From Verrucomicrobiia bacterium (GTDB lineage Bacteria > Verrucomicrobiota > Verrucomicrobiia > Limisphaerales > Fontisphaeraceae), in assembly GCA_026414565.1 (NCBI GenBank), contig JAOAIT010000007.1, forward strand, positions 62,001 to 126,000: DNA of 64,000 nucleotides, read 5' to 3'. The first letter of the stretch is position 1, and each line of letters begins with the position of its first letter. The translations under genes and the position numbers were made by a program. Positions 48,474 through 58,726 of the stretch are shown one piece after another. A model generated the notes under the pieces. The model was not told the origin of the DNA. It ran no database searches and saw only the letters and a list, made by a program, of their open reading frames with translations.

Positions 48474-49841
48474 ATGAAAACTCCGTCCTCCAACCCTCCC
48501 CGGAAACGCGGCGTAAGCCGGCGTGAATTTCTGAATACCACCACCACGGCGGCGGCGGTGTCCGCGCTGGCCGGCGTGGCGCTGCCCCATGTGCATGCGG
48601 CGGAGGACAGCACCATCCAGATGGCCCTCATCGGCTGCGGAGGGCGGGGGAGCGGCGCGGCGGCCGATGCCCTGCGCTCGACAACGGGGCCGACCAAACT
48701 GGTGGCGATGGCCGATTTGTTTGAAGACCGGCTCACCAGCGCCCACCGCAACTTGAGCCAGGCCTTTGGCGAGCGGGCGGATGTCCCGCCGGATCACCGG
48801 TTTGTGGGTTTCGACGCCTACCGCCATGCCATTGACAGCCTGCGTCCCGGCAGTGTGGTGCTGCAATGCACCCATGCGGCGTTTCGGGCGCAACATCTGG
48901 AATATGCCATCCAGAAGGGCATGCATGTGTTCATGGAGAAAACGTTTGCCGCCGATCCCGTGGGCATCCGGCGCATCCTCAAGGCGGGCGAAGCGGCCGC
49001 GGCCAAAAACTTGAAAATTGCCTGCGGCCTCATGTGCCGCCATTCCTCCGCCCGCCAGGCGCTCATCGAGAAAATCCGGCGGGGCGACCTGGGGGAGATT
49101 CATCTCATCCGGGCCTATCGCATGGACAGCGGCTACCTCATGGGACCGTACAACGGCAAGGAAAACGAGCTGCTGTGGCAAATTCGCCGGCCGTACCAGT
49201 TTTTTTGGGCGTCGTCCGGCATTTTCATCGAGCTGATGATTCATCAGGTGGATGAATGTTGCTGGATCAAGGACGCCTGGCCCATCAGTGCCCATGGCGT
49301 GGGAGGGCGCGCCCCCGGGGTGGCCGACGCCAGCCAGAACCTGCACTCCTACGGCATTGAATACACTTTTGCCGATGGCGCCCGGGCCTTTGTCACCGGC
49401 CGTTATCTGCCCAAATGCCACAGTGATTTTTCGACTTACCTGCATGGCACAAAGGCCGCCGCGCAATTCAGCGGCGACATTCACGCCCCCACCGTGCGCG
49501 TCTATAAGGACCAGCGCATCACCGGTGACAACGTCGCGTGGCGGCCGGATAAAGAGACCAAAAGCCCCTACCAGGCGGAATGGGACGTCCTGCTCACGGC
49601 CATCCGGGAGGACCGCCCGCACAACGAGGTGCAGCGGGCGGCCTACTCCAACCTCGCGGCCATCATGGGCCGCGCCGCAGTGCACATGGGGCGCATCATC
49701 ACGTGGGAGGAAGCCCTCAACTCCACTTTTTCGTTCTATCCGGATGTGGATAAACTCACTGCCGACAGCCCGGCACCGGTGCGCGCCAACGCCCAGGGCT
49801 ACTATCCCGTGCCCGTGCCTGGCCAGTGGAGTGAAATCTAA
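48474..49841 (+). CDS. Gfo/Idh/MocA family oxidoreductase with Tat signal
   Basis: About 455 aa. It has a twin-arginine signal, RKRGVSRREFLNTTTTAAAV, then the Rossmann motif ALIGCGGRGSGAAAD. The catalytic block is HVFMEKTFAADPVG (EKT where most have EKP), and the histidine/aspartate region is in IELMIHQVDECCWI. It is likely an exported NAD(P)-linked sugar oxidoreductase, divergent from the ThuA-DUF1080 pair and probably working with them. The ATG at 48474 puts the signal at the N-terminus; an ATG at 48444 is also in frame. Confidence 0.88.
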   Translation: MKTPSSNPPRKRGVSRREFLNTTTTAAAVSALAGVALPHVHAAEDSTIQMALIGCGGRGSGAAADALRSTTGPTKLVAMADLFEDRLTSAHRNLSQAFGERADVPPDHRFVGFDAYRHAIDSLRPGSVVLQCTHAAFRAQHLEYAIQKGMHVFMEKTFAADPVGIRRILKAGEAAAAKNLKIACGLMCRHSSARQALIEKIRRGDLGEIHLIRAYRMDSGYLMGPYNGKENELLWQIRRPYQFFWASSGIFIELMIHQVDECCWIKDAWPISAHGVGGRAPGVADASQNLHSYGIEYTFADGARAFVTGRYLPKCHSDFSTYLHGTKAAAQFSGDIHAPTVRVYKDQRITGDNVAWRPDKETKSPYQAEWDVLLTAIREDRPHNEVQRAAYSNLAAIMGRAAVHMGRIITWEEALNSTFSFYPDVDKLTADSPAPVRANAQGYYPVPVPGQWSEI

Positions 49842-49845
49842 GACC

Positions 49846-49867
49846 TGCGGCCCCGCGCGCGGCCGCA
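49846..49867 (+). terminator. GC hairpin after the MocA-like gene
   Basis: TGCGGCC (49846-49852) and GGCCGCA (49861-49867) with an 8-nt loop, just past the stop codon. There is no T-run, so termination is uncertain. Confidence 0.3.
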
Positions 49868-49912
49868 ACAATGGCATAGGCAAAGGGGCAATTTGGGGCT
49901 AGAGTAGAAAGG

Positions 49913-51082
49913 ATGATTGGGTTGTGGAAGCAACATCCTTTGCGCGACATTGCAGAGCGGGTGGACGCCGGCCGGCGCCTGACGGAGGCGGAGGCCCTGC
50001 GGCTTTTTCAGTCGCGTGACTTGCATGCCTTGTCCGCTCTGGCCACGCAGGTGCGGGAGCGGTTGAACGGCCTGCGCGCCAGCTATATCGTCAACCGCTA
50101 CATCAATTACTCGAATTACTGCATTCTCTCCTGCCAGTTTTGCGCCTTTGCCCGCAAGAAACGCAACGGCGACGGTTTCGAGCTGACGGTGGAGGAAATC
50201 GTGGCCAAGGCGCGGGAGGCGCTGGGCCTGGGCATCACCGAGCTGCATATCGTGGGGGGGCTGCATCCGAGCCTGCCCTACAGTTATTACCTGGAAATGT
50301 TGCGCGCGCTCAAGGCGCTGGACCCGCGGCTGCACCTCAAATGTTTTACCGCCATCGAGGTGTTGCATCTGGCCATGCTCGCCAAAAAACCGATGGAAAA
50401 AGTGCTCGAAGATTTGAAAGCCGCCGGCTTGGACTCCCTGACCGGCGGAGGCGCGGAGATTTTCCGGCCCGCCGTGCGCGAGGCCATCGCCCGGGGCAAG
50501 GAGCCGGCGGCGGATTACCTGCATGTGCATCGCACCTGGCACCGGATGGGGGGGCGGAGCACCTGCACCATGTTGTATGGGCACGTGGAAACGTTGGAGG
50601 ACCGGGTGGATCACCTGCGGCAGTTGCGGGCGTTGCAGGACGAAACCGGCGGATTCTGCGGCTTCATCCCGCTGCCCTATCAGCCGGAAAACAACGCCAT
50701 CCCGGTGGCGCATCCGCCGTCGGGATTTGATACTCTGCGGACCATGGCGGTGAGCCGGCTGTATCTGGACAACATCCCCCACCTGACCGCCTACTGGGTG
50801 GGGCTGGGGTTGAAACTGGCGCAACTGGCGTTGAGCTACGGCGCGGATGATCTGCACGGCACCATCGTAGAGGAGCACATTTTTCGCATGGCGGGCGCCA
50901 AGACGCCGCAGTTGCAAACCGAGCTGGCCATGGTCAAGGCAATCCGCGAGGCCGGGCTGGTGCCGGTGCAGCGCGACACGTTTTATCAGCCCCTCAAAGT
51001 GTGGGACGGCCCCACGCCGCGGGTGGTCACGCCCACGGCGGCGGCAGCCTCGATTCTGCAAAACAATCTGGCCACGGCCTGA
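49913..51082 (+). CDS. mqnE: Aminofutalosine synthase MqnE (menaquinone synthesis)
   Basis: 389 aa radical SAM enzyme. It joins 3-[(1-carboxyvinyl)oxy]benzoate (from MqnA) with SAM to give 6-amino-6-deoxyfutalosine in the futalosine route to menaquinone. The cluster motif is YCILSCQFCAF (Cys 70, 74, 77). FCGFIPLPYQPENNAIPV and DDLHGTIVEEHI are typical of the MqnE/MqnC family. mqnA follows 3 nt later. An AAAGG ribosome-binding site precedes the ATG. Confidence 0.94.
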   Translation: MIGLWKQHPLRDIAERVDAGRRLTEAEALRLFQSRDLHALSALATQVRERLNGLRASYIVNRYINYSNYCILSCQFCAFARKKRNGDGFELTVEEIVAKAREALGLGITELHIVGGLHPSLPYSYYLEMLRALKALDPRLHLKCFTAIEVLHLAMLAKKPMEKVLEDLKAAGLDSLTGGGAEIFRPAVREAIARGKEPAADYLHVHRTWHRMGGRSTCTMLYGHVETLEDRVDHLRQLRALQDETGGFCGFIPLPYQPENNAIPVAHPPSGFDTLRTMAVSRLYLDNIPHLTAYWVGLGLKLAQLALSYGADDLHGTIVEEHIFRMAGAKTPQLQTELAMVKAIREAGLVPVQRDTFYQPLKVWDGPTPRVVTPTAAAASILQNNLATA

Positions 51083-51085
51083 ACC

Positions 51086-51973
51086 ATGAGCGGCGATGCT
51101 CCCATTCCCCGGCTGCGCCTGGCGCCGCGTGAGACGCTGGAAGAGTTGATTCACCGCGAGGAGCGCATTCACCGCGCCGAGCAGCTTCAACGGGAGGCCG
51201 GACTGGAAAACTCCCTGGCCCCTTTTCGCGTGGGCACGGTGCCCTATCTCAACGGCGTGCCGTTGACGCGGGGGCTGGAGGAGCAGGTGATTTACGCCAC
51301 GCCCGCCAAACTGGCGGAAATGCTGCGGCGCGAGGAGCTGGACGCGGCTTTGGTCAGCGTCACCGAAGTGCTGTTGACCGGGCGTTATGATGTGCTGGAC
51401 GGGATTGCGATTGCCTCGCTGGGCGAGGTGTTGAGTGTGCTGCTGGCGCATCGGGTGCCCCTGGAGGAGGTGCGGGAGGTGCATTGCGATCCGGCCTCGC
51501 TGACCAGCGTCAACCTGCTCAAGGTGCTGCTGGCGGAGCGGGGATTGCGGCCCGCCTTTGTGCCGTTGGCGGACTATGCGGCCGCCGCCCATAAGGAGGC
51601 GGTATTGCTGATTGGCGATGCCGCGCTGGAGTTTTTGCTGGGGCCGCATGAGCATCAAATCTGGGATTTGGGCGCCGCATGGATGGAGCTGACGGGCAAG
51701 CCGTTTGTGTACGCCGTCTGGGCGCTGCGGCGGGGGGTGGAAAATGAGCGCCTGCGCCGCCTCCTGCGCGAAGCCAGGGCGTTCGGCATGGAAACGCTGG
51801 ATTACATCATCACCAGCCGCACCGAGTTCAATTACAACTTCCGCAAGGATTACCTGACCTGGCATCTGCACTATCACCTGGGCAGCGACGAAAAGGCCGG
51901 CCTGGCGCGGTTTGGCGAGCTGCTGGAAAAGCACGGCCTGGGGCCGGTGTACGCGCCGGTGTACGTGTATTGA
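51086..51973 (+). CDS. mqnA: Chorismate dehydratase MqnA (menaquinone synthesis)
   Basis: 295 aa. It converts chorismate to 3-[(1-carboxyvinyl)oxy]benzoate, the first step of the futalosine pathway. The core starts at FRVGTVPYLNGVPLTRGL and includes the ligand-binding hinge (ALVSVTEVL), the TSVNLLKVLL strand and AALEFLLGPHEHQIWDLGAAW. The ~45 residues before it (MSGDAPIPRLRLAPRETLEE...) are a charged helical extension not usual in MqnA. The pair mqnE-mqnA shows that this organism makes menaquinone by the futalosine route; other steps are outside the window. Confidence 0.9.
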   Translation: MSGDAPIPRLRLAPRETLEELIHREERIHRAEQLQREAGLENSLAPFRVGTVPYLNGVPLTRGLEEQVIYATPAKLAEMLRREELDAALVSVTEVLLTGRYDVLDGIAIASLGEVLSVLLAHRVPLEEVREVHCDPASLTSVNLLKVLLAERGLRPAFVPLADYAAAAHKEAVLLIGDAALEFLLGPHEHQIWDLGAAWMELTGKPFVYAVWALRRGVENERLRRLLREARAFGMETLDYIITSRTEFNYNFRKDYLTWHLHYHLGSDEKAGLARFGELLEKHGLGPVYAPVYVY

Positions 51974-52127
51974 GTTAGTCCCACTTCCGGCTTTGAACCT
52001 TTGCATGCCTTGGCTTCCGGCCTGGGCGCGCGACTTCAACCAGGGGCTTTTTGCGTGCCGGGGGGGGTGACGCACTGCCTTCCAAAGGGGGGCCGGGATT
52101 CTCGGGGCTTTTCTGCGCAAACTTTTT

Positions 52128-52155
52128 TTGCGGAATCCGTACGCATAGGTAATAA
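52128..52155 (+). promoter_or_regulatory. Candidate promoter of the aromatic-acid operon
   Basis: TTGCGG (52128-52133) and TAATAA (52150-52155) with 16-nt spacing, in a local AT-rich patch within the 270-bp gap 51974-52243. The predicted start lies about 80 nt before the ATG at 52244. Confidence 0.5.
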
Positions 52156-52243
52156 TTGGGGTAATGATGGCTATTAGCAGAACAGATAAATGCCTCGCGG
52201 TACCGCCCAGCCGGAGCGGGGCCGGACGGCACGGCATGGTCCT

Positions 52244-53596
52244 ATGAATACGACGATTGCCGCCCCCGCGCGCCCGGCTGCGCCGCCGTTGGAAAAGGCG
52301 ACGACGGCCGGCAACTATTTTGTTTCGAATTATCCACCCTTCTCGTGCTGGAAGCCGGAGCGGGTGGCCGAGGCGCTGGCGGCCATTGGCCGTCCCCCGC
52401 AGCCCGGCACGCCGCTGGGGTTGTATGTGCACATCCCGTTTTGCCGCAAGCGGTGCCACTTCTGTTATTTCAAGGTGTACACAGACAAGGATTCTGCCGA
52501 AATCCGGCACTATCTGGACGCGGTGGGGCGGGAGCTGGAGCTGTACGCCCGCCAGCCTTTCGTTGGCGGCCGCAAACCGTTGTTTGTTTATTTCGGCGGC
52601 GGCACCCCTTCCTACCTGTCGGTGGAGCAGTTGCGGCATCTGGTGGGCCATTTGCAGCGGCTGCTGCCGTGGGACGAAGTGCAGGAGGTGACCTTCGAAT
52701 GTGAGCCGGGGACGCTGACGGATCACAAGCTGGCAGCCATCCGTGAGCTGGGCGTCACGCGGCTGAGCCTGGGCATTGAGAATTTCGATGATCACATTTT
52801 GGAGATCAACGGCCGGGCGCATCGGTCCCGGGAAATTGAACGCGCCTACCGGTACGCGCGGCAGATCGGTTTTCCGCAGATCAACATTGATCTGATTGCC
52901 GGCATGGTGGAGGAGACGGAGGAAAACTGGCGGCAGTGCGTGCGGCGCACCCTCGAGCTGGCGCCCGACAGTGTGACCATCTATCAGATGGAAATACCCT
53001 ACAACACCACCATTTACCAGCGCATGAAGGCCGAGGGCAAACTGGTGGCGCCGGTGGCTGATTGGGAAACCAAACGGGCGTGGGTCAAGTACGCTTTTGC
53101 CGAGCTGGAGGCCGCGGGGTACACCGTGGCCAGCGCGTACACGGCCGTCCGCGAGCCCGCGCGCACGCGCTTCATTTACCGCGATGCCCTCTGGCAGGGG
53201 GCGGACATGCTGGCGCTGGGGGTGGCCTCCTTCTCGCACATTGGCGGGACCCATTTTCAAAACCTGCACGATTTCGAGCCGTATCTGGCCCGGCTGGACG
53301 CCGGCGAGCTGCCCATCTACCGGGCCTTGACGCCTACGTCGCAGGAACGGCTCATTCGCGAGCTGGTGTTGCAATTTAAGCTGGGACGGGTGCGCCGCAG
53401 TTATTTTCAGCAGAAGTACGGGGTGGACATTGCGGCGGCCTTCGTGGAAGCCTTGCAACGCCTGGAGGGATGGGGGTTCCTGGAGCGGGCGCCGGACGGC
53501 GATGAACTGCGTTTCAACCGCGACGGCCTGTTGCAGGTGGACCGCCTGATTCACGAGTTTTTCCTGCCGGAGCACCGGCAGGTGCGTTATGCCTGA
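52244..53596 (+). CDS. HemN-like radical SAM enzyme (not clearly a coproporphyrinogen oxidase)
   Basis: About 450 aa. The radical SAM motif is FCRKRCHFCYF (Cys 67, 71, 74), with YVHIPFC before it, the GGGTPSYLS motif and a HemN_C-type C-terminal winged region (ERLIRELVLQFKLGRV...). Authentic HemN oxidises coproporphyrinogen III and HemW is a haem chaperone, but this branch has an FCYFKVYTDKD continuation and sits with aromatic-acid genes rather than haem genes. I suspect a carbon-skeleton or methyl-type radical reaction on the pathway product. It is first in the operon; I chose the ATG at 52244. Confidence 0.8.
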   Translation: MNTTIAAPARPAAPPLEKATTAGNYFVSNYPPFSCWKPERVAEALAAIGRPPQPGTPLGLYVHIPFCRKRCHFCYFKVYTDKDSAEIRHYLDAVGRELELYARQPFVGGRKPLFVYFGGGTPSYLSVEQLRHLVGHLQRLLPWDEVQEVTFECEPGTLTDHKLAAIRELGVTRLSLGIENFDDHILEINGRAHRSREIERAYRYARQIGFPQINIDLIAGMVEETEENWRQCVRRTLELAPDSVTIYQMEIPYNTTIYQRMKAEGKLVAPVADWETKRAWVKYAFAELEAAGYTVASAYTAVREPARTRFIYRDALWQGADMLALGVASFSHIGGTHFQNLHDFEPYLARLDAGELPIYRALTPTSQERLIRELVLQFKLGRVRRSYFQQKYGVDIAAAFVEALQRLEGWGFLERAPDGDELRFNRDGLLQVDRLIHEFFLPEHRQVRYA

Positions 53597-53608
53597 AGCC
53601 GCTTTGAT

Positions 53609-54277
53609 ATGCCTGCCCTGCTAAACCATCCGCCAGTCCTCCCCGATACGGCCGCGTGGAAGCGCGGGCCGGTCACGGCCTTGGAATGGTGGCGGTGGTT
53701 TGGGCAGCAGCAGGGGGTGGAGTTTCCGCGGCCGCAAGCTGTGCCGCCGGCGGCACTGCCCGCGCCGTATCGGCAGTTGCTGGCGCACGGGCAGGACATG
53801 ACCTCCACCCTGGAGCGGTTTTATCAAACGCGGCTGGCCCTGCGCCCGCTGCGCCGGGAACGGCACGGGCCGTTTTACGTGCGCGAGGTGTTGCTGCTCA
53901 CGGCGGCGGGGGTGCCGGTGGAATATGGGGTGATCTGCGTGCGCTTAAACGCCTTCCCACCGGCGGTGCAGGAGGAGATTCTGTCGGAGCGGCTGCCGCT
54001 GGGACGGCTGTTGCAGGATCACGAGCAGCCCTGTGTGTGCCGGCCCCAGGAGTTTTACCGGCTGGCGCCGCATCCCTATCTGGAGGCGCAGTTGGGCATC
54101 CGCCCGGCGCCGGAAGCCTACCATGGGCGGCGCAATTTGCTGTTAAACAGCGAGCACCGGCTGCTGGCTGACGTGCTGGAGATACTTTCCCCGGTGGCGG
54201 AGCGGACCCCGGGCCCGCTGCCGGTGGATTATAGCGCCCAGTTTGGGCAATGGATGACGGAGGAGAAGTCCCTATGA
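53609..54277 (+). CDS. Chorismate lyase-like protein (UbiC/DUF98 family)
   Basis: 222 aa. The core has the pattern of chorismate pyruvate-lyases: AHGQDMTSTLERFY (the 'G.MT..L' start), REVLLLTAAGVPVEYG, then a strand and PLGRLLQDH, where the family has a Leu-Gly-Gln/Arg-hydrophobic turn. Such enzymes cleave chorismate to 4-hydroxybenzoate (or 3-hydroxybenzoate in some lineages) and pyruvate. The organism evidently uses menaquinone, so the product is unlikely to go to ubiquinone; the CoA ligase and thioesterase of the operon suggest another aromatic use. The 3' end overlaps the next gene by 4 nt (ATGA). Confidence 0.72.
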   Translation: MPALLNHPPVLPDTAAWKRGPVTALEWWRWFGQQQGVEFPRPQAVPPAALPAPYRQLLAHGQDMTSTLERFYQTRLALRPLRRERHGPFYVREVLLLTAAGVPVEYGVICVRLNAFPPAVQEEILSERLPLGRLLQDHEQPCVCRPQEFYRLAPHPYLEAQLGIRPAPEAYHGRRNLLLNSEHRLLADVLEILSPVAERTPGPLPVDYSAQFGQWMTEEKSL

Positions 54278-55545
54278 AAACGGAAACCACTTACGATGCG
54301 TTGGTGGTGGGCGCCGGTCCCGCTGGCTCCACCGCGGCGGCGCTGCTGGCGGAATATGGGCATCGCGTGCTGGTGCTCGAACGCGAGAAATTTCCGCGCT
54401 ACCACATTGGCGAGTCGCTGCTGCCGTTCACCTTTTACCCGCTGCAACGGCTGGGGCTGATTCCGGCGATGCGCCAGTCGGCCTTCGTCAAGAAATACAG
54501 CGTGCAGTTCATCAGCACCTCCGGCAAGGCCGCGCAGCCGTTTTACTTCTTCACCCGTTACGACGCGGACGTGGCGCAGACGTGGCAGGTGTTGCGCAGC
54601 GAGTTTGATTTGTTGCTCATGAACAACGCCCGCGCGCGGGGGGCGGAGGTGCGGGAGCAAACCACCGTGCTGGATCTGCTCCGCGAAGGGGAGCGCGTGG
54701 TGGGCGTGCGCGCCGCCGGACCGGACGGCCGGGAATACACCGTGCGCGCGCGGCTCACTCTGGATGCCACCGGGCGCGACGCCCTGGCGGCCGGGCGCTT
54801 CAACTGGCGCGTGCGCGATCCGTACCTGAAAAAGTTTGCGGTGTGGACGTATTATGAGGGCATCCCGCGCCCGGAGGGCATTGACGCCGGCGCCACCACG
54901 GTGGCGTTTCTGCCCCAGAAAGGATGGTTCTGGTACATCCCGCTGCACGGGGACCGCATCAGCGTGGGCGCGGTGGCCGAGGGGCCGTACCTCACCCGCG
55001 ACGGCGTGCGCGAGCCGGAGAAGATGTTTCAGCGCGAAATCCAGAACAACGCCTGGATTGCCGAGCAGCTCAGCAAGGGCCGGCAGGTGGGGCCCTACTA
55101 TCTGACCAATGAATTCTCCTATCGCTCGCGTTATTGCGCGGTGGACGGGCTGGTGATGCTGGGGGATGCCTTCGGTTTTCTGGATCCGGTGTTTTCCTCC
55201 GGGGTCATGCTTGCGCTCAAGAGCGGCATGCTCGCAGCCGACGCCGGGCACGCGGCGCTGGTGGCGGGGGATGTCTCGGCCGGGCGATTTGCGGAGTACA
55301 GCCAGATGATGCGGCAGGGCATTGAGAACATGCGCAAGCTGGTGTACGCATTCTATCAGGAGGGCTTCAGCTTCCGTGATCTGACCGACAAATACCCGGA
55401 GGTGCAGGGGGACATCACCGACTGCCTCTCCGGCGACGTGAACAAGGACTTGAGCCGTCTGTTTGAACGCGTGGCCGAGTTTGCCCAGGTGCCTGAACCG
55501 CTGCCGTATGGCGAAGTCCTGGCGCCCGAAATGGCGGCCGTCTGA
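54274..55545 (+). CDS. FAD-dependent oxidoreductase of the flavin halogenase/monooxygenase family
   Basis: About 423 aa. The FAD motif GAGPAGS is at residues 13-19. HIGESLLP and the halogenase-type WxWxIP (GWFWYIPL, Trp 218 and 220) follow, along with FAD-contact GDAFGFLDPVFSSG. WxWxIP distinguishes flavin-dependent halogenases from simple hydroxylases, and FVKKYSVQF carries lysines near where halogenases place their catalytic Lys, but a hydroxylase, dehydrogenase or geranylgeranyl-reductase-like role cannot be excluded. The ATG at 54274 overlaps the stop of the chorismate-lyase-like gene, so the two are translationally coupled. It probably acts on a hydroxybenzoyl compound. Confidence 0.8.
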   Translation: MKTETTYDALVVGAGPAGSTAAALLAEYGHRVLVLEREKFPRYHIGESLLPFTFYPLQRLGLIPAMRQSAFVKKYSVQFISTSGKAAQPFYFFTRYDADVAQTWQVLRSEFDLLLMNNARARGAEVREQTTVLDLLREGERVVGVRAAGPDGREYTVRARLTLDATGRDALAAGRFNWRVRDPYLKKFAVWTYYEGIPRPEGIDAGATTVAFLPQKGWFWYIPLHGDRISVGAVAEGPYLTRDGVREPEKMFQREIQNNAWIAEQLSKGRQVGPYYLTNEFSYRSRYCAVDGLVMLGDAFGFLDPVFSSGVMLALKSGMLAADAGHAALVAGDVSAGRFAEYSQMMRQGIENMRKLVYAFYQEGFSFRDLTDKYPEVQGDITDCLSGDVNKDLSRLFERVAEFAQVPEPLPYGEVLAPEMAAV

Positions 55546-55555
55546 CGCCCCGGCC

Positions 55556-56047
55556 ATGCGTTACACCATGCCCTCAGAATTCGTTCATCGCCGCCGCGTG
55601 GAATTTGCCGAGACCGACATGGCCGGCATCATGCACTTCAGCCATTTTTTCCGCTTCATGGAAAGCGCCGAGCATGCGTTTTTCCGCTCGCTGGGCTTTT
55701 CTGTGGCGCGGCCGGGCGGGGATGACCGCCTGGGGCTGCCGCGGGTCCATGCGCGGTGTGATTTCCTGGCCCCGCTGCGGTTTGAGGATGAAGTGGAGAT
55801 CCGCCTGCGGGTGGCCAAAAAAACCCGCCGCAGCCTGACCTACCAATTTACCCTGCGCCGCGTGCAGCCGGCGCCCGAAGTGGACGCGGCGCGGGGGGAA
55901 ATCACGGTGGTTTGCGTGGAACATCGCGCGGACGGCACCCTTAAAGCGGTGCCGCTGCCCGAGGTGATTGCGCGGGCCATCGAAGCTGCGCCGCCGGAGG
56001 AAAGCCCCGGGCGTGCCGGGGCGGCCGGCGCCAAACCACGTCGTTAA
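55556..56047 (+). CDS. Hotdog-fold acyl-CoA thioesterase (4HBT-like)
   Basis: About 163 aa. The active-site block is ETDMAGIMHFSHFFRFMESAEH, split in two by its loop: the Asp in DMAGI and the His nearby are typical of the 4-hydroxybenzoyl-CoA thioesterase branch. FLAPLRFEDEVEIRLRV is the usual second conserved strand. It would release an aromatic acid from CoA, which fits with the CoA ligase two genes further on. It starts 10 nt after the flavin enzyme gene. A second ATG at 55568 is possible. Confidence 0.88.
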   Translation: MRYTMPSEFVHRRRVEFAETDMAGIMHFSHFFRFMESAEHAFFRSLGFSVARPGGDDRLGLPRVHARCDFLAPLRFEDEVEIRLRVAKKTRRSLTYQFTLRRVQPAPEVDAARGEITVVCVEHRADGTLKAVPLPEVIARAIEAAPPEESPGRAGAAGAKPRR

Positions 56048-56056
56048 CCTTGTTCC

Positions 56057-56626
56057 ATGTCCATGCCACAATCGAATAGCTCAACGGATTCCACCTGGTT
56101 GGTGTTTGCCCTGATGACGGTGCTGTGCTGGGGGTTGTATGGCATCTTTCTGCACCACGGCCAACTGGCCATGCAAGACCCCGCCCACGGCCGCATGAAA
56201 GCCTTCCTCTGTGTGGGGCTGGCGTATTTTCTCACTGCCGTGCTTGCGCCGCTGGCCCTGCTCATGGCCCAGGGCGCTTCATGGCATTACCCGCTCAAAG
56301 GTTTTTCGTGGTCCCTGCTGGCGGGGGTCGTGGGGGCGGCAGGCGCGCTGGGGGTGTTGCTCGCCTTCGGGGCGCGCGGCACGCCGGCGGTGGTGATGTC
56401 CATCGTTTTTGCGGGCGCGCCCATTGTCAACGCCGTCGTGGGGCTGCTGTTGCATCCCCCGGCCGGCGGATGGGCAAAATTGCCGCTGCCGTTTTTGCTG
56501 GGCATTGTGCTGGCCGCCACGGGAGGCGCCCTGGTGACGTTGTACAAACCCGCCCCGGCGCCGGCCAAGCCCGCGGTCACCACCACGGCGTCGGCGTCTT
56601 CTGCTGCCAAACCCCTGGCTCCATGA
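56057..56626 (+). CDS. Five-helix EamA/DMT-like membrane protein
   Basis: 189 aa, with five predicted transmembrane helices (~12-33, 49-72, 84-105, 109-131, 143-163) and a short Ala/Pro/Thr-rich tail. This is one half of the usual ten-helix drug/metabolite transporter, with GVVGAAGALGVLLAFGARG and GAPIVNAVVG as the recognisable repeats. It may dimerise and export a pathway product or move an intermediate. It begins 9 nt after the thioesterase stop and its stop overlaps the CoA ligase start by 4 nt. Confidence 0.78.
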   Translation: MSMPQSNSSTDSTWLVFALMTVLCWGLYGIFLHHGQLAMQDPAHGRMKAFLCVGLAYFLTAVLAPLALLMAQGASWHYPLKGFSWSLLAGVVGAAGALGVLLAFGARGTPAVVMSIVFAGAPIVNAVVGLLLHPPAGGWAKLPLPFLLGIVLAATGGALVTLYKPAPAPAKPAVTTTASASSAAKPLAP

Positions 56627-57999
56627 GTGCCTGGCCGGCCATGGCCCTGCCCGCCGAAGAGCCGCTCCCGGAATACCTGACGCGGCCGGAGCTGCAACGC
56701 CTCCAGTGCGAGAAGCTGCGGGCCTTGCTCCAGTTGGCGCGCGCGCAAAATCCTTTTTACCGGCGCAAGTGGGAGGGGTTGGACATGCCCGAAGCCGGGG
56801 AGGATGCGCGGGCGTTGTTGCAACTGCTGCCTTTCACCACCAAGGCCGAGTTGCTGGCTGATCAGCAGGCCGCCCCGCCCTACGGCACCAACCTCACTTT
56901 TCCCCCCGAGCACTACTTCCGCTGCCATCAGACCAGCGGCAGCACCGGCGCCACGCTGCGCTGGCCCGACACCCGCGAAAGCTGGCTGGCCATGCTGGAC
57001 GCGTGGGCGCAGATTTTCCGCGCGGCGCAGGTCACGCCGCGCGACCGCCTCTTCTTTGCGTTTTCCTTTGGGCCCTTCATCGGTTTTTGGAGCGCGTTTG
57101 AGGCGGCCGAGCGCCTGGGTTGTTTCTGTTTCCCCGGCGGCGCGATGAACAGCGAAGCCCGCCTGCGGGCGTTATTGGACAACCATTGCACGGTGCTGCT
57201 CTGCACCCCCACCTATGCCCTGCACCTGGGGCAGGAGGCGCGCGCGGCGGGTCTGGACCTTGCCGCCAGCCGCATCCGGCTCATCATCACGGCGGGGGAG
57301 CCCGGCGGCAGCGTGCCGGCGGTGCGGGCACGTTTGAGCAGTTTGTGGAACGGGGCGCGTGTCTTTGATCATCATGGCATGACTGAAACGGGGCCGGTGA
57401 CGTATGAATGTCCCGCCCGCCCCGGGGTGTTGCACGTGATGGAAAACCTGTTTGTGGCGGAGGTGGTGGATCCAGCCACCGGCCAGCCCGGCGTGACCGA
57501 GGGCGAGCTGGTGTTGACCACCCTGAACCGGGTGGGCTCTCCGGCGATCCGCTACCGCACCGGGGATCGCGTGCGCGTGGCGCCCGAGGGCGTGTGCGCC
57601 TGCGGCCGCCATCTGCTGGCGCTGGAAGGCGGCATCATCGGGCGGGCCGATGACATGGTCATTGTGCGCGGGGTCAACGTTTATCCGGCCGCGGTGGACA
57701 ACTTGATCCGGGGCTTCAAGGACGTGGCCGAGTATCGGGTGCATTTGGTGCAGTCCGGCGCCCTGCCGGAGCTGCTGGTGGAGATTGAACCGGCGCCCGG
57801 AGTTTTGTATCCCGAAACCCTGGCCCAACGCCTGCGTTGCGCTTTTCACACGGCGCTGGGCTTGCGCGTGCCGGTGCGGCTGGCGGCTCCGGGCACGCTG
57901 CCGCGCTTCGAGATGAAAAGCCGGCGGTGGGTCAAAACCCTGGGGGAGCCGTTGACCTCGGGCGAATCCCCGGACAAATTTCCCGTCTTTCCCGTTTAA
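56623..57999 (+). CDS. PaaK-like aryl/acyl-CoA ligase (AMP-forming)
   Basis: About 458 aa of the phenylacetate-CoA ligase type. Adenylation motifs run in order: TSGSTGATL (~105), HGMTETGPVTYEC, YRTGDRV and GRADDMVIVRGVNVYP; the C-terminal Lys region reads FEMKSRRWVK. It activates a carboxylic acid, most likely the benzoate-type acid made by the chorismate-lyase-like enzyme, to its CoA thioester using ATP. The ATG overlaps the previous stop by 4 nt. It ends the operon, about 200 bp before rpmH. Confidence 0.88.
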   Translation: MSAWPAMALPAEEPLPEYLTRPELQRLQCEKLRALLQLARAQNPFYRRKWEGLDMPEAGEDARALLQLLPFTTKAELLADQQAAPPYGTNLTFPPEHYFRCHQTSGSTGATLRWPDTRESWLAMLDAWAQIFRAAQVTPRDRLFFAFSFGPFIGFWSAFEAAERLGCFCFPGGAMNSEARLRALLDNHCTVLLCTPTYALHLGQEARAAGLDLAASRIRLIITAGEPGGSVPAVRARLSSLWNGARVFDHHGMTETGPVTYECPARPGVLHVMENLFVAEVVDPATGQPGVTEGELVLTTLNRVGSPAIRYRTGDRVRVAPEGVCACGRHLLALEGGIIGRADDMVIVRGVNVYPAAVDNLIRGFKDVAEYRVHLVQSGALPELLVEIEPAPGVLYPETLAQRLRCAFHTALGLRVPVRLAAPGTLPRFEMKSRRWVKTLGEPLTSGESPDKFPVFPV

Positions 58000-58098
58000 G
58001 CCAGGCGAGCGGGTGGGGCTGATGGCCTCGCCACCGGCCCCTTGGCCCCTCGGCAGCACCAGGCTGGCCATTTCCGCGGCTTGACATGAGAATCTTCA

Positions 58099-58128
58099 TT
58101 GTTAGGCTCGCCGGCTCCATGTTATAGT
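58099..58128 (+). promoter_or_regulatory. Promoter of the rpmH operon
   Basis: Extended -10 TGT-TATAGT (hexamer 58123-58128) with TTGTTA (58099-58104) 18 nt upstream. The predicted start near 58135 leaves a ~69-nt leader before the ATG at 58204. A TTGACA at 58081-58086 is further upstream but lacks a good partner. Confidence 0.6.
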
Positions 58129-58203
58129 ATGGGCTTGCGGCGCGGGCGCCGTCCGGCATCGGCGGGATGAGGCGGGGCGTCGCAGGCAAGGCAAACACTA
58201 AAT

Positions 58204-58341
58204 ATGAAACGGACTCTTCAACCGTCGAAAATACGCCGGAAGCGGCAACATGGTTTTCTGGCCCGCAATTCTTCCAAGAGCGGGCGCAAAGTACTGGCCA
58301 ACCGCCGGCGGGTGGGGCGCAAGCGTTTGACCCCCGTCTAA
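58204..58341 (+). CDS. rpmH: Ribosomal protein L34
   Basis: 45 aa: [20 protein letters not shown], followed by a basic tail that ends KRLTPV. This is the full standard L34, a small basic component of the large ribosomal subunit. It is too short to stand out by length, but the sequence is unmistakable. It heads the rpmH-rnpA-yidD-yidC-khpB cluster that often lies near the chromosome origin; dnaA, its usual neighbour, is not here. Confidence 0.97.
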
Positions 58342-58357
58342 GCCCCGGGAGGCCGGC

Positions 58358-58726
58358 ATGATTCCAGCCGCGTCCCAAGGGTTGCCGCGGGAACGGCGAC
58401 TGCGCCGCCCGGGTGAGTTTGCCCGGTTGCGGGAGGAAGGCCGCCGCCTGGTGGTGGGCTGCCTCATTATGAACTGGCAGCCCGCTCCGGAGGGCGCCGG
58501 CAGCCGGCTGGGGGTGGTGACCTCGCGGGCGCTGGGCGAGGCCGTGGTGCGCAACCGCGGCCGGCGCCTGATGCGCGAGGTATGGCGGCGGCATCAAAAC
58601 GATCTGCGCCAGCCGGTGCACATGGTGCTGGTGGCGCGGCCGTCGCTGGCCACCAAATCTTTTGGGCAGGTGGAGGCCGATTTTATGCAGGCCCTCCGCC
58701 TGGCCCGTTTGTTGAAAGACTTGTGA
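58358..58726 (+). CDS. rnpA: Ribonuclease P protein component
   Basis: 122 aa. It binds the catalytic RNA of RNase P and helps tRNA 5'-end maturation. The RNR motif is clear ([15 protein letters not shown]), together with the N-terminal [18 protein letters not shown] and [12 protein letters not shown]. It lies 16 nt after rpmH, and its stop overlaps the yidD start (GTGA). Confidence 0.93.

Follow-up and report, generated by a model that had tools for sequence, protein, structure and literature searches.

Halogenases are known mainly from natural-product clusters that are specific to a strain. Here we analyse a flavoprotein of the flavin-dependent halogenase family, and the genes that accompany it, encoded in a 64,000-nucleotide stretch of DNA from a Verrucomicrobiia bacterium (GenBank assembly GCA_026414565.1, contig JAOAIT010000007.1, positions 62,001 to 126,000; hereafter the window). 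Its closest described relatives are FasV (PDB 8zop), CndH (3e1t), ChlB4 (7fco), PltA (5dbj), Mpy16 (5buk) and Bmp2 (5bva), to which it is 28–35% identical, with fold-comparison Z scores of 41–48. A lysine, a WxW..P-type strand and an FxxPxxSxG motif in FasV, CndH, ChlB4, PltA and Mpy16 align with the flavoprotein. Unlike these enzymes, it belongs to a subfamily with its own K-x-S-V-x-F signature and is paired across phyla with a HemN-like radical S-adenosylmethionine (radical-SAM) protein, and no carrier protein or ketosynthase was recognised near its gene, where not every open reading frame (ORF) was scanned.

The marine bmp pathway resembles the pathway proposed here in having chorismate-derived 4-hydroxybenzoate as the halogenation substrate. 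Bmp6 is presumably its chorismate lyase, and we know of no HemN-like protein, GT4 glycosyltransferase or LolD/FtsX exporter in this pathway. Bmp5 makes 2,4-dibromophenol from p-hydroxybenzoic acid and, unlike the flavoprotein, is without the WxWxIP motif or a variant of it, according to the section of PMC8407142 cited here. ChlB4 of the chlorothricin pathway is postulated in the same section to act on 6-methylsalicylate, which is a methyl-hydroxybenzoate unit, but that pathway is a Streptomyces polyketide pathway with an acyl carrier protein and a KSIII-like acyltransferase (PMC9573744).

The flavoprotein belongs to the flavin-dependent halogenase family

54274..55545, + strand: FAD-dependent halogenase-family protein, 423 aa (ORF, Pfam, PDB sequence search, fold, motifs)

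The flavoprotein carries a GxGxxG motif (GAGPAG, residues 13–18), the segment FVKKYS with K73 and K74, and the segment GWFWYIP (217–223). A first-pass annotation of the window had read GWFWYIPL as the WxWxIP signature of halogenases in a non-tryptophan context, and both parts of that claim are borne out. WFWYIP occupies residues 218–223, Trp_halogenase is the top Pfam family (E=1e-29), and the top seven matches in a PDB sequence search are all named halogenases, among them 8zop (6.9e-62; named FasV in the Foldseek listing), CndH 3e1t (2.5e-57), ChlB4 (2.3e-55), PltA (3.2e-49) and CmlS (3.5e-48). The eighth match, 3nix, is a protein of unknown function. The resemblance far exceeds what chance would give, and a profile search likewise put halogenases first. 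An additional halogenase motif, FxxPxxSxG, is present as FLDPVFSSG at residues 302–310. The flavoprotein is thus a member of the flavin-dependent halogenase family of the non-tryptophan type, nearest to FasV, CndH, ChlB4 and PltA, and constitutes a new subfamily within a known kind of enzyme.

An AlphaFold2 model of the flavoprotein, built from an alignment of orthologues (A1, defined below), has a mean predicted local distance difference test (pLDDT) score of 89.4, with residues 304–307 below 50. Structural comparison with VIA-align placed FasV 8zop best (Z 48.1, root-mean-square deviation (rmsd) 1.9, 385 residues), followed among halogenases by Bmp2 (46.4), Mpy16 (45.2), PltA (44.9), ChlB4 (44.7), CndH (41.6), RadH (41.1) and CmlS (35.9). 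For the non-halogenases Z fell to 34.3 (rmsd 3.4) with the geranylgeranyl-reductase-like 3oz2, to 33.7 with kynurenine monooxygenase and to 31.8–32.0 with p-hydroxybenzoate hydroxylase. The superposition on PltA and CmlS proposed in the first-pass annotation favours halogenases, with a gap between CmlS and 3oz2 of 1.6 Z only. Foldseek places PltM under a flavin monooxygenase. The nearest halogenases outrank the reductases and hydroxylases by sequence and fold, whereas distant ones such as PltM rank below some of these.

The annotation had also placed the FVKKYS lysines near the catalytic lysine of halogenases. By sequence alignment, K74 falls in the same column as the lysine of FasV (FQRKYG), CndH (FPIKRG), ChlB4 (FPKKYG), and PltA and Mpy16 (FPKKFG), which makes it the candidate catalytic residue. 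CmlS was compared through the alignment of a paralogue, in which the segment reads YVKKPS. Conservation was assessed in A1, which comprises the window protein and 28 of 30 orthologue loci (L030, split over two frames, the fragment L031 and two extra L014 paralogues were left out), and in a wider set of 27 rows, with 24 distinct sequences, four of them common to A1, and identity down to 39%. K74, WxWxIP and G13 of the GxGxxG motif are each kept in 29/29 and 27/27 rows. FxxPxxSxG is kept in 29/29 rows of A1; in the wider set S308 is present in 26/27 rows (L181 has Cys) and the remaining positions in 27/27. After the lysine, the subfamily shows K-x-S-V-x-F, with L181 as the exception, versus K-x-G in the known halogenases aligned. 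This conservation matters because of the roles of these motifs in studied halogenases: in the sections of PMC8407142 and PMC10696468 cited here, RebH, PrnA and Rdc2 lost their activity when the lysine was exchanged for alanine, WxWxIP is suggested to block monooxygenation, and Fx.Px.Sx.G lines the tunnel.

A small set of genes co-occurs with the flavoprotein gene

The flavoprotein gene lies among the following genes of the window:

49913..51082, + strand: MqnE, aminofutalosine synthase, upstream neighbour (TIGR03700, 464 bits vs cut-off 434.55)
51086..51973, + strand: MqnA-like protein, upstream neighbour (Pfam VitK2_biosynth)
52244..53596, + strand: HemN-like radical-SAM protein with CxxxCxxC, likely start 52244 (Pfam, NCBIfam, orthologue alignment)
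53609..54277, + strand: chorismate-lyase-like protein of DUF98/UbiC fold, 222 aa (model fold match, conserved residues)
55568..56047, + strand: 4HBT/YbgC-like thioesterase, likely start 55568 from orthologues (Pfam, NCBIfam)
56057..56626, + strand: small membrane protein, membrane nature judged by eye (no Pfam or NCBIfam match)
56623..57999, + strand: PaaK/FlxY-like AMP-forming aryl-acid ligase, likely start 56623 (Pfam, NCBIfam)

An even sample of 194 genomes from the window's phylum contained a flavoprotein orthologue (E <1e-160) in six (G000, G059, G066, G160, G187 and G190); 15 of the 21 matching genomes were left out as weaker (E 9e-92 to 5e-62, 32–38% identical). The lyase (<1e-8), the HemN-like protein (<1e-100) and the small membrane protein (<1e-15) were found in exactly the same six genomes and in 0/188 others. 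The ligase (<1e-150) occurred in these six and in G086, and a GT4 glycosyltransferase (<1e-60) in the six and 19 others. In G066, G187 and G190 the flavoprotein gene is on another contig than the lyase and HemN-like genes, so the pattern reflects co-occurrence and not linkage alone. The E-value cuts for orthologues were chosen after gaps were seen. The Fisher value for the six genomes, 1.5e-11, is overstated because they come from four families, with three in family f8; this value and a further Fisher value of 6e-29 ignore genome relatedness.

When one genome per species was scanned, 31 loci matched, of which 30 are orthologues with 46–75% identity; L033, a 28% match in Bacillus, was excluded from the family counts. 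The records are mostly Verrucomicrobia, and also Planctomycetota, Acidobacteria, Bryobacteraceae and Hinthialibacteria, and nearly all of the 30 genomes are metagenome bins. All but G208 and G219 carry the lyase (28 genomes), and all but G196, G204 and G208 carry the HemN-like protein (27 genomes). L014 belongs to Brevifollis gellanilyticus NBRC 108608, whose genome holds flavoprotein, lyase and HemN-like genes. The genome of L025 carries the lyase outside the flavoprotein locus, and that of L028 has no lyase.

The pairing of flavoprotein and HemN-like protein recurs in a second phylum. Among 199 genomes of the phylum to which L029 belongs (label Acidobacteria), 32 have the flavoprotein (<=1e-125), 34 the HemN-like protein (1e-90) and 30 both; 14 of 46 genomes had weaker flavoprotein matches (E >1e-125) and are excluded from the 32. 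G280 and G313 have the flavoprotein alone, and G292, G303, G340 and G395 the HemN-like protein alone. G340 has a flavoprotein fragment that starts at base 9 of a contig.

Several loci deviate in copy number or labelling. G206 holds two flavoprotein copies (L015 9001–10230 and L181 4646–5872; 63% and 45% identical to that of the window), the second of which, L181, sits within a HemN-like cluster. L014 7566–13368 has three nearby halogenase-like flavoprotein genes, whose identities to the window protein are 36%, 59% and 27%, and a similar trio is found at L072 7643–11933. In L030 (9001–10183) the flavoprotein lies in two frames, with pieces of 66% and 61% identity, through a frameshift or an assembly error. 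L032 is labelled Akkermansia muciniphila, but its genome, G223, is ~6.5 Mb; we take this to be much above the size for that species, and the label is probably wrong.

Partner proteins and the larger cluster

The lyase-like gene shares its last 4 bp with the beginning of the flavoprotein gene, and its product has neither a Pfam nor an NCBIfam match. Its model (pLDDT 83.4) shares a fold with the UbiC/DUF98 lyases, with Z scores of 15.7 for DUF98 2nwi and 11.6 for chorismate lyase 1g81 (21% identity). Unlike those lyases, it has no Pfam assignment, identity is 16–21% overall, and HutC-type sensor domains reach Z 11.9, level with UbiC 1g81. Its profile matched 2nwi alone among PDB sequences (E 0.007). 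Residues R92, G132, G173, R174 and E191 are invariant in 30/30 sequences (window and 29 matches), with R92 and E191 at positions that we take to correspond to UbiC R76 and E155. The model and these residues point to a chorismate-lyase-like protein that combines the UbiC/DUF98 fold with the conserved Arg and Glu and is predicted to release pyruvate from chorismate. Viral contigs scanned with the lyase gave no match.

The HemN-like protein is 58–73% identical to eight aligned orthologues, and its best NCBIfam models (HutW, HemN and STM4012) are all under cut-off. MenK enzymes are HemN-like in the part of PMC10320005 cited here, and we took the six MKMT motifs from its Table 2. The window protein has the radical-SAM type and the Fe-S motif in common with MenK/MqnK; this is one of the six motifs and has its exact form in 5/9 aligned rows. 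A MenK/MqnK methyltransferase was rejected as an identity because the other five motifs are absent, occurring in 0/9 rows.

The MqnA-like gene ends 270 bp ahead of the likely start of the HemN-like gene. MqnE probably belongs to menaquinone synthesis and not to this module. A promoter and terminator scan of 49700–58500 performed no better than on shuffles, so operon limits are drawn from gene spacing only.

A larger cluster was read from stretches of up to 20 kb. In its fuller form it contains a beta-propeller (PQQ_2/BamB-like), an AMP-binding protein, an aldehyde-dehydrogenase-like protein, an Fe-alcohol dehydrogenase, the HemN-like protein, the lyase or a TonB receptor, the flavoprotein, a sodium:solute symporter, GT4, the thioesterase, the small membrane protein, the ligase, and a LolD-type ATPase with a ~1100-aa permease with FtsX domains. 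The complete set was seen together in none of the stretches read. In Pfam, two cluster genes match the aldehyde-dehydrogenase family (2.9e-13, 2.5e-09) and, under the cut-off, the AMP-binding family; the names LuxC and LuxE for these two are a by-eye reading only. The acidobacterial locus L029 has lyase and ligase inside the cluster. A polyketide or aryl-polyene cluster was considered and set aside, as no ketosynthase or carrier protein was recognised in the loci read, which is no proof since not every ORF was checked against Pfam. In searches of open-licence PMC papers aimed at the gene set or its hosts, no title or opening of an abstract described this set; nor was a paper on FasV as a flavin halogenase found among them.

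GT4 in the window's genome is unlinked to the cluster (contig C38), where a polyprenyl synthase adjoins it (L117 9388–11809); another polyprenyl synthase is near the ligase in G187 (L107 2651–3661). UbiA-like and UbiX-like genes in L015 are a by-eye reading with no search result. Very long FtsX-domain permeases (~1100–1180 aa) accompany a LolD-type ATPase at L005 7389–10928, L022 9109–12399 and L115 3855–7238; for the L022 permease no NCBIfam model is above cut-off. Non-homologous transporters, of the Na/H-exchanger family, the NMT1-type ABC importers or the sodium:solute symporters, lie near the flavoprotein gene (L008, L014, L019, L024, L032, L069, L074; L073–L075; L215, L216, L218–L221, L225). 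The varied adjoining transporters hint at a transported precursor or ion.

Proposed function and alternative explanations

We propose, with a probability of roughly 0.55, that the flavoprotein halogenates a hydroxybenzoyl-type unit as part of a conserved pathway for which our literature searches gave no description. Halogenation as such is probable, and the odds of a hydroxybenzoyl-type substrate are somewhat lower. In this proposal FADH2 would be supplied by a separate flavin reductase and would react with O2 to a flavin C4a-hydroperoxide. Halide would be oxidised to HOX, which would travel through a WxWxIP-shielded tunnel to K74, from where it would be handed on to an electron-rich ring. For the window's lineage the most likely ring is a hydroxybenzoyl unit, a natural candidate because lyase and aryl-acid ligase co-occur with the flavoprotein there. 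In the order of steps that we infer, the lyase would convert chorismate to hydroxybenzoate, a radical reaction of the HemN-like enzyme, possibly C-methylation, would modify it, the AMP-forming ligase would turn it into the CoA ester, and the flavoprotein would then halogenate it. The thioesterase would release or transfer the halogenated unit, and the product would be glycosylated by GT4 and leave through the LolD/FtsX-type exporter. The C-methylation by the HemN-like protein, the glycosylation and the export are tentative steps, which the family names make plausible.

Several observations weigh against this proposal. The protein of unknown function 3nix sits among the halogenases by fold (Z 44.6), and PltM, a more distant halogenase, ranks under the reductase-like 3oz2 by sequence (6.4e-12 vs 2.3e-14), so that rank alone gives no function. 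The best NCBIfam match, the CmlS model NF033113, reaches 203.3 bits, far short of the 900 set as its cut-off. The analysis revealed neither a halogenated product nor a halide site or activity, and in the stretches read, in which not every ORF was scanned, we recognised neither a flavin reductase nor a carrier protein or ketosynthase. Halogenases of secondary metabolism are not usually conserved across phyla. The chorismate-lyase-like neighbour, which the first-pass annotation had linked to a phenolic benzoate substrate, stands as a real gene that co-occurs with the flavoprotein gene in the window's phylum and in the species-level scan, but it is seldom seen in the stretches read from the Acidobacteriota sample. 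In a six-frame profile search of 12 Acidobacteriota stretches from 11 genomes, the lyase was found in 1/12 (L226), the ligase in 2/12 (L223, L226), the small membrane protein in two (L224, L225) and GT4 in nine, as counts for the stretches and not whole genomes. Given the lyase and ligase counts, a hydroxybenzoate or its CoA ester is a tentative inference as the substrate. Finally, the protein hydroxylase QhpG retains Trp181/Trp183 in its re-face channel (PMC7876137, section cited) and yet hydroxylates, so the motifs are marks of halogenases and not proof.

The main rival follows from this last point: a hydroxylase on the halogenase fold, like QhpG, whose C4a-hydroperoxide would hydroxylate or oxidatively couple an aromatic intermediate, with K74 serving in substrate binding or acid catalysis. 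QhpG is closest to CmlS structurally but hydroxylates a peptidyl Trp (same section of PMC7876137), the gene pair is conserved across phyla in the manner of a core pathway, and the K-x-S-V-x-F signature sets the subfamily apart from the K-x-G of known halogenases. The window protein, however, reaches only 125.6 bits with the QhpG model NF049967, against a curated cut-off of 240, among solved structures halogenases come closest to it and the listed hydroxylases rank behind them, and Lys, WxWxIP and FxxPxxSxG are all kept; we regard monooxygenation as unlikely on balance. A geranylgeranyl-reductase-like flavoenzyme reducing a prenyl chain is disfavoured and highly improbable. Its TIGR02032 match has E=4.4e-33, but at 115.2 bits it falls below the curated cut-off of 158.8, 3oz2 fits the model far less closely than FasV does, and the tunnel-type Lys and WxWxIP are present. 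The annotation had named a missing tunnel lysine, or closer similarity to geranylgeranyl reductases or hydroxylases, as evidence against a halogenase; instead K74 aligns, halogenases rank first, and the reductase and QhpG models stay below their cut-offs.

The flavoprotein and the HemN-like protein could instead modify menaquinone or another isoprenoid quinone. Such a role would fit mqnE and mqnA directly upstream of the cluster (49913–51973), an mqnA match near the flavoprotein gene in L015 (6951–7763), the polyprenyl synthases that adjoin GT4 (G000) or lie close to the ligase (G187), and the HemN-like nature of MenK enzymes (PMC10320005, part cited). The HemN-like protein nevertheless has just the Fe-S motif of the six MKMT motifs, and an mqnA neighbour occurs in two loci only, the window and L015, and does not recur in the other loci read, so that we consider a quinone-related function improbable.

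Significance

The same few partner genes in several environmental bacterial groups point to a shared pathway. The most far-reaching form of the halogenase proposal, which we consider less likely than not, is a halogenation pathway that Verrucomicrobiota and Acidobacteriota share with at least one Planctomycetota genome and whose genes are scattered but inherited together. The halogenase and the HemN-like enzyme would there modify a small aromatic acid before its glycosylation and export. With the same reserve, the halogenated compound may be retained in the manner of a core metabolite, unlike an antibiotic of a single strain, and may be a bacterial source of natural organohalogens. If the flavoprotein hydroxylates, it would be an equally useful test of whether Lys and WxWxIP predict halogenation. 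If it halogenates, bacteria such as Acidobacteriota and Verrucomicrobiota would have a halogenated metabolite with a general role, and these genes would offer a genetic handle on the origin of natural organohalogens.

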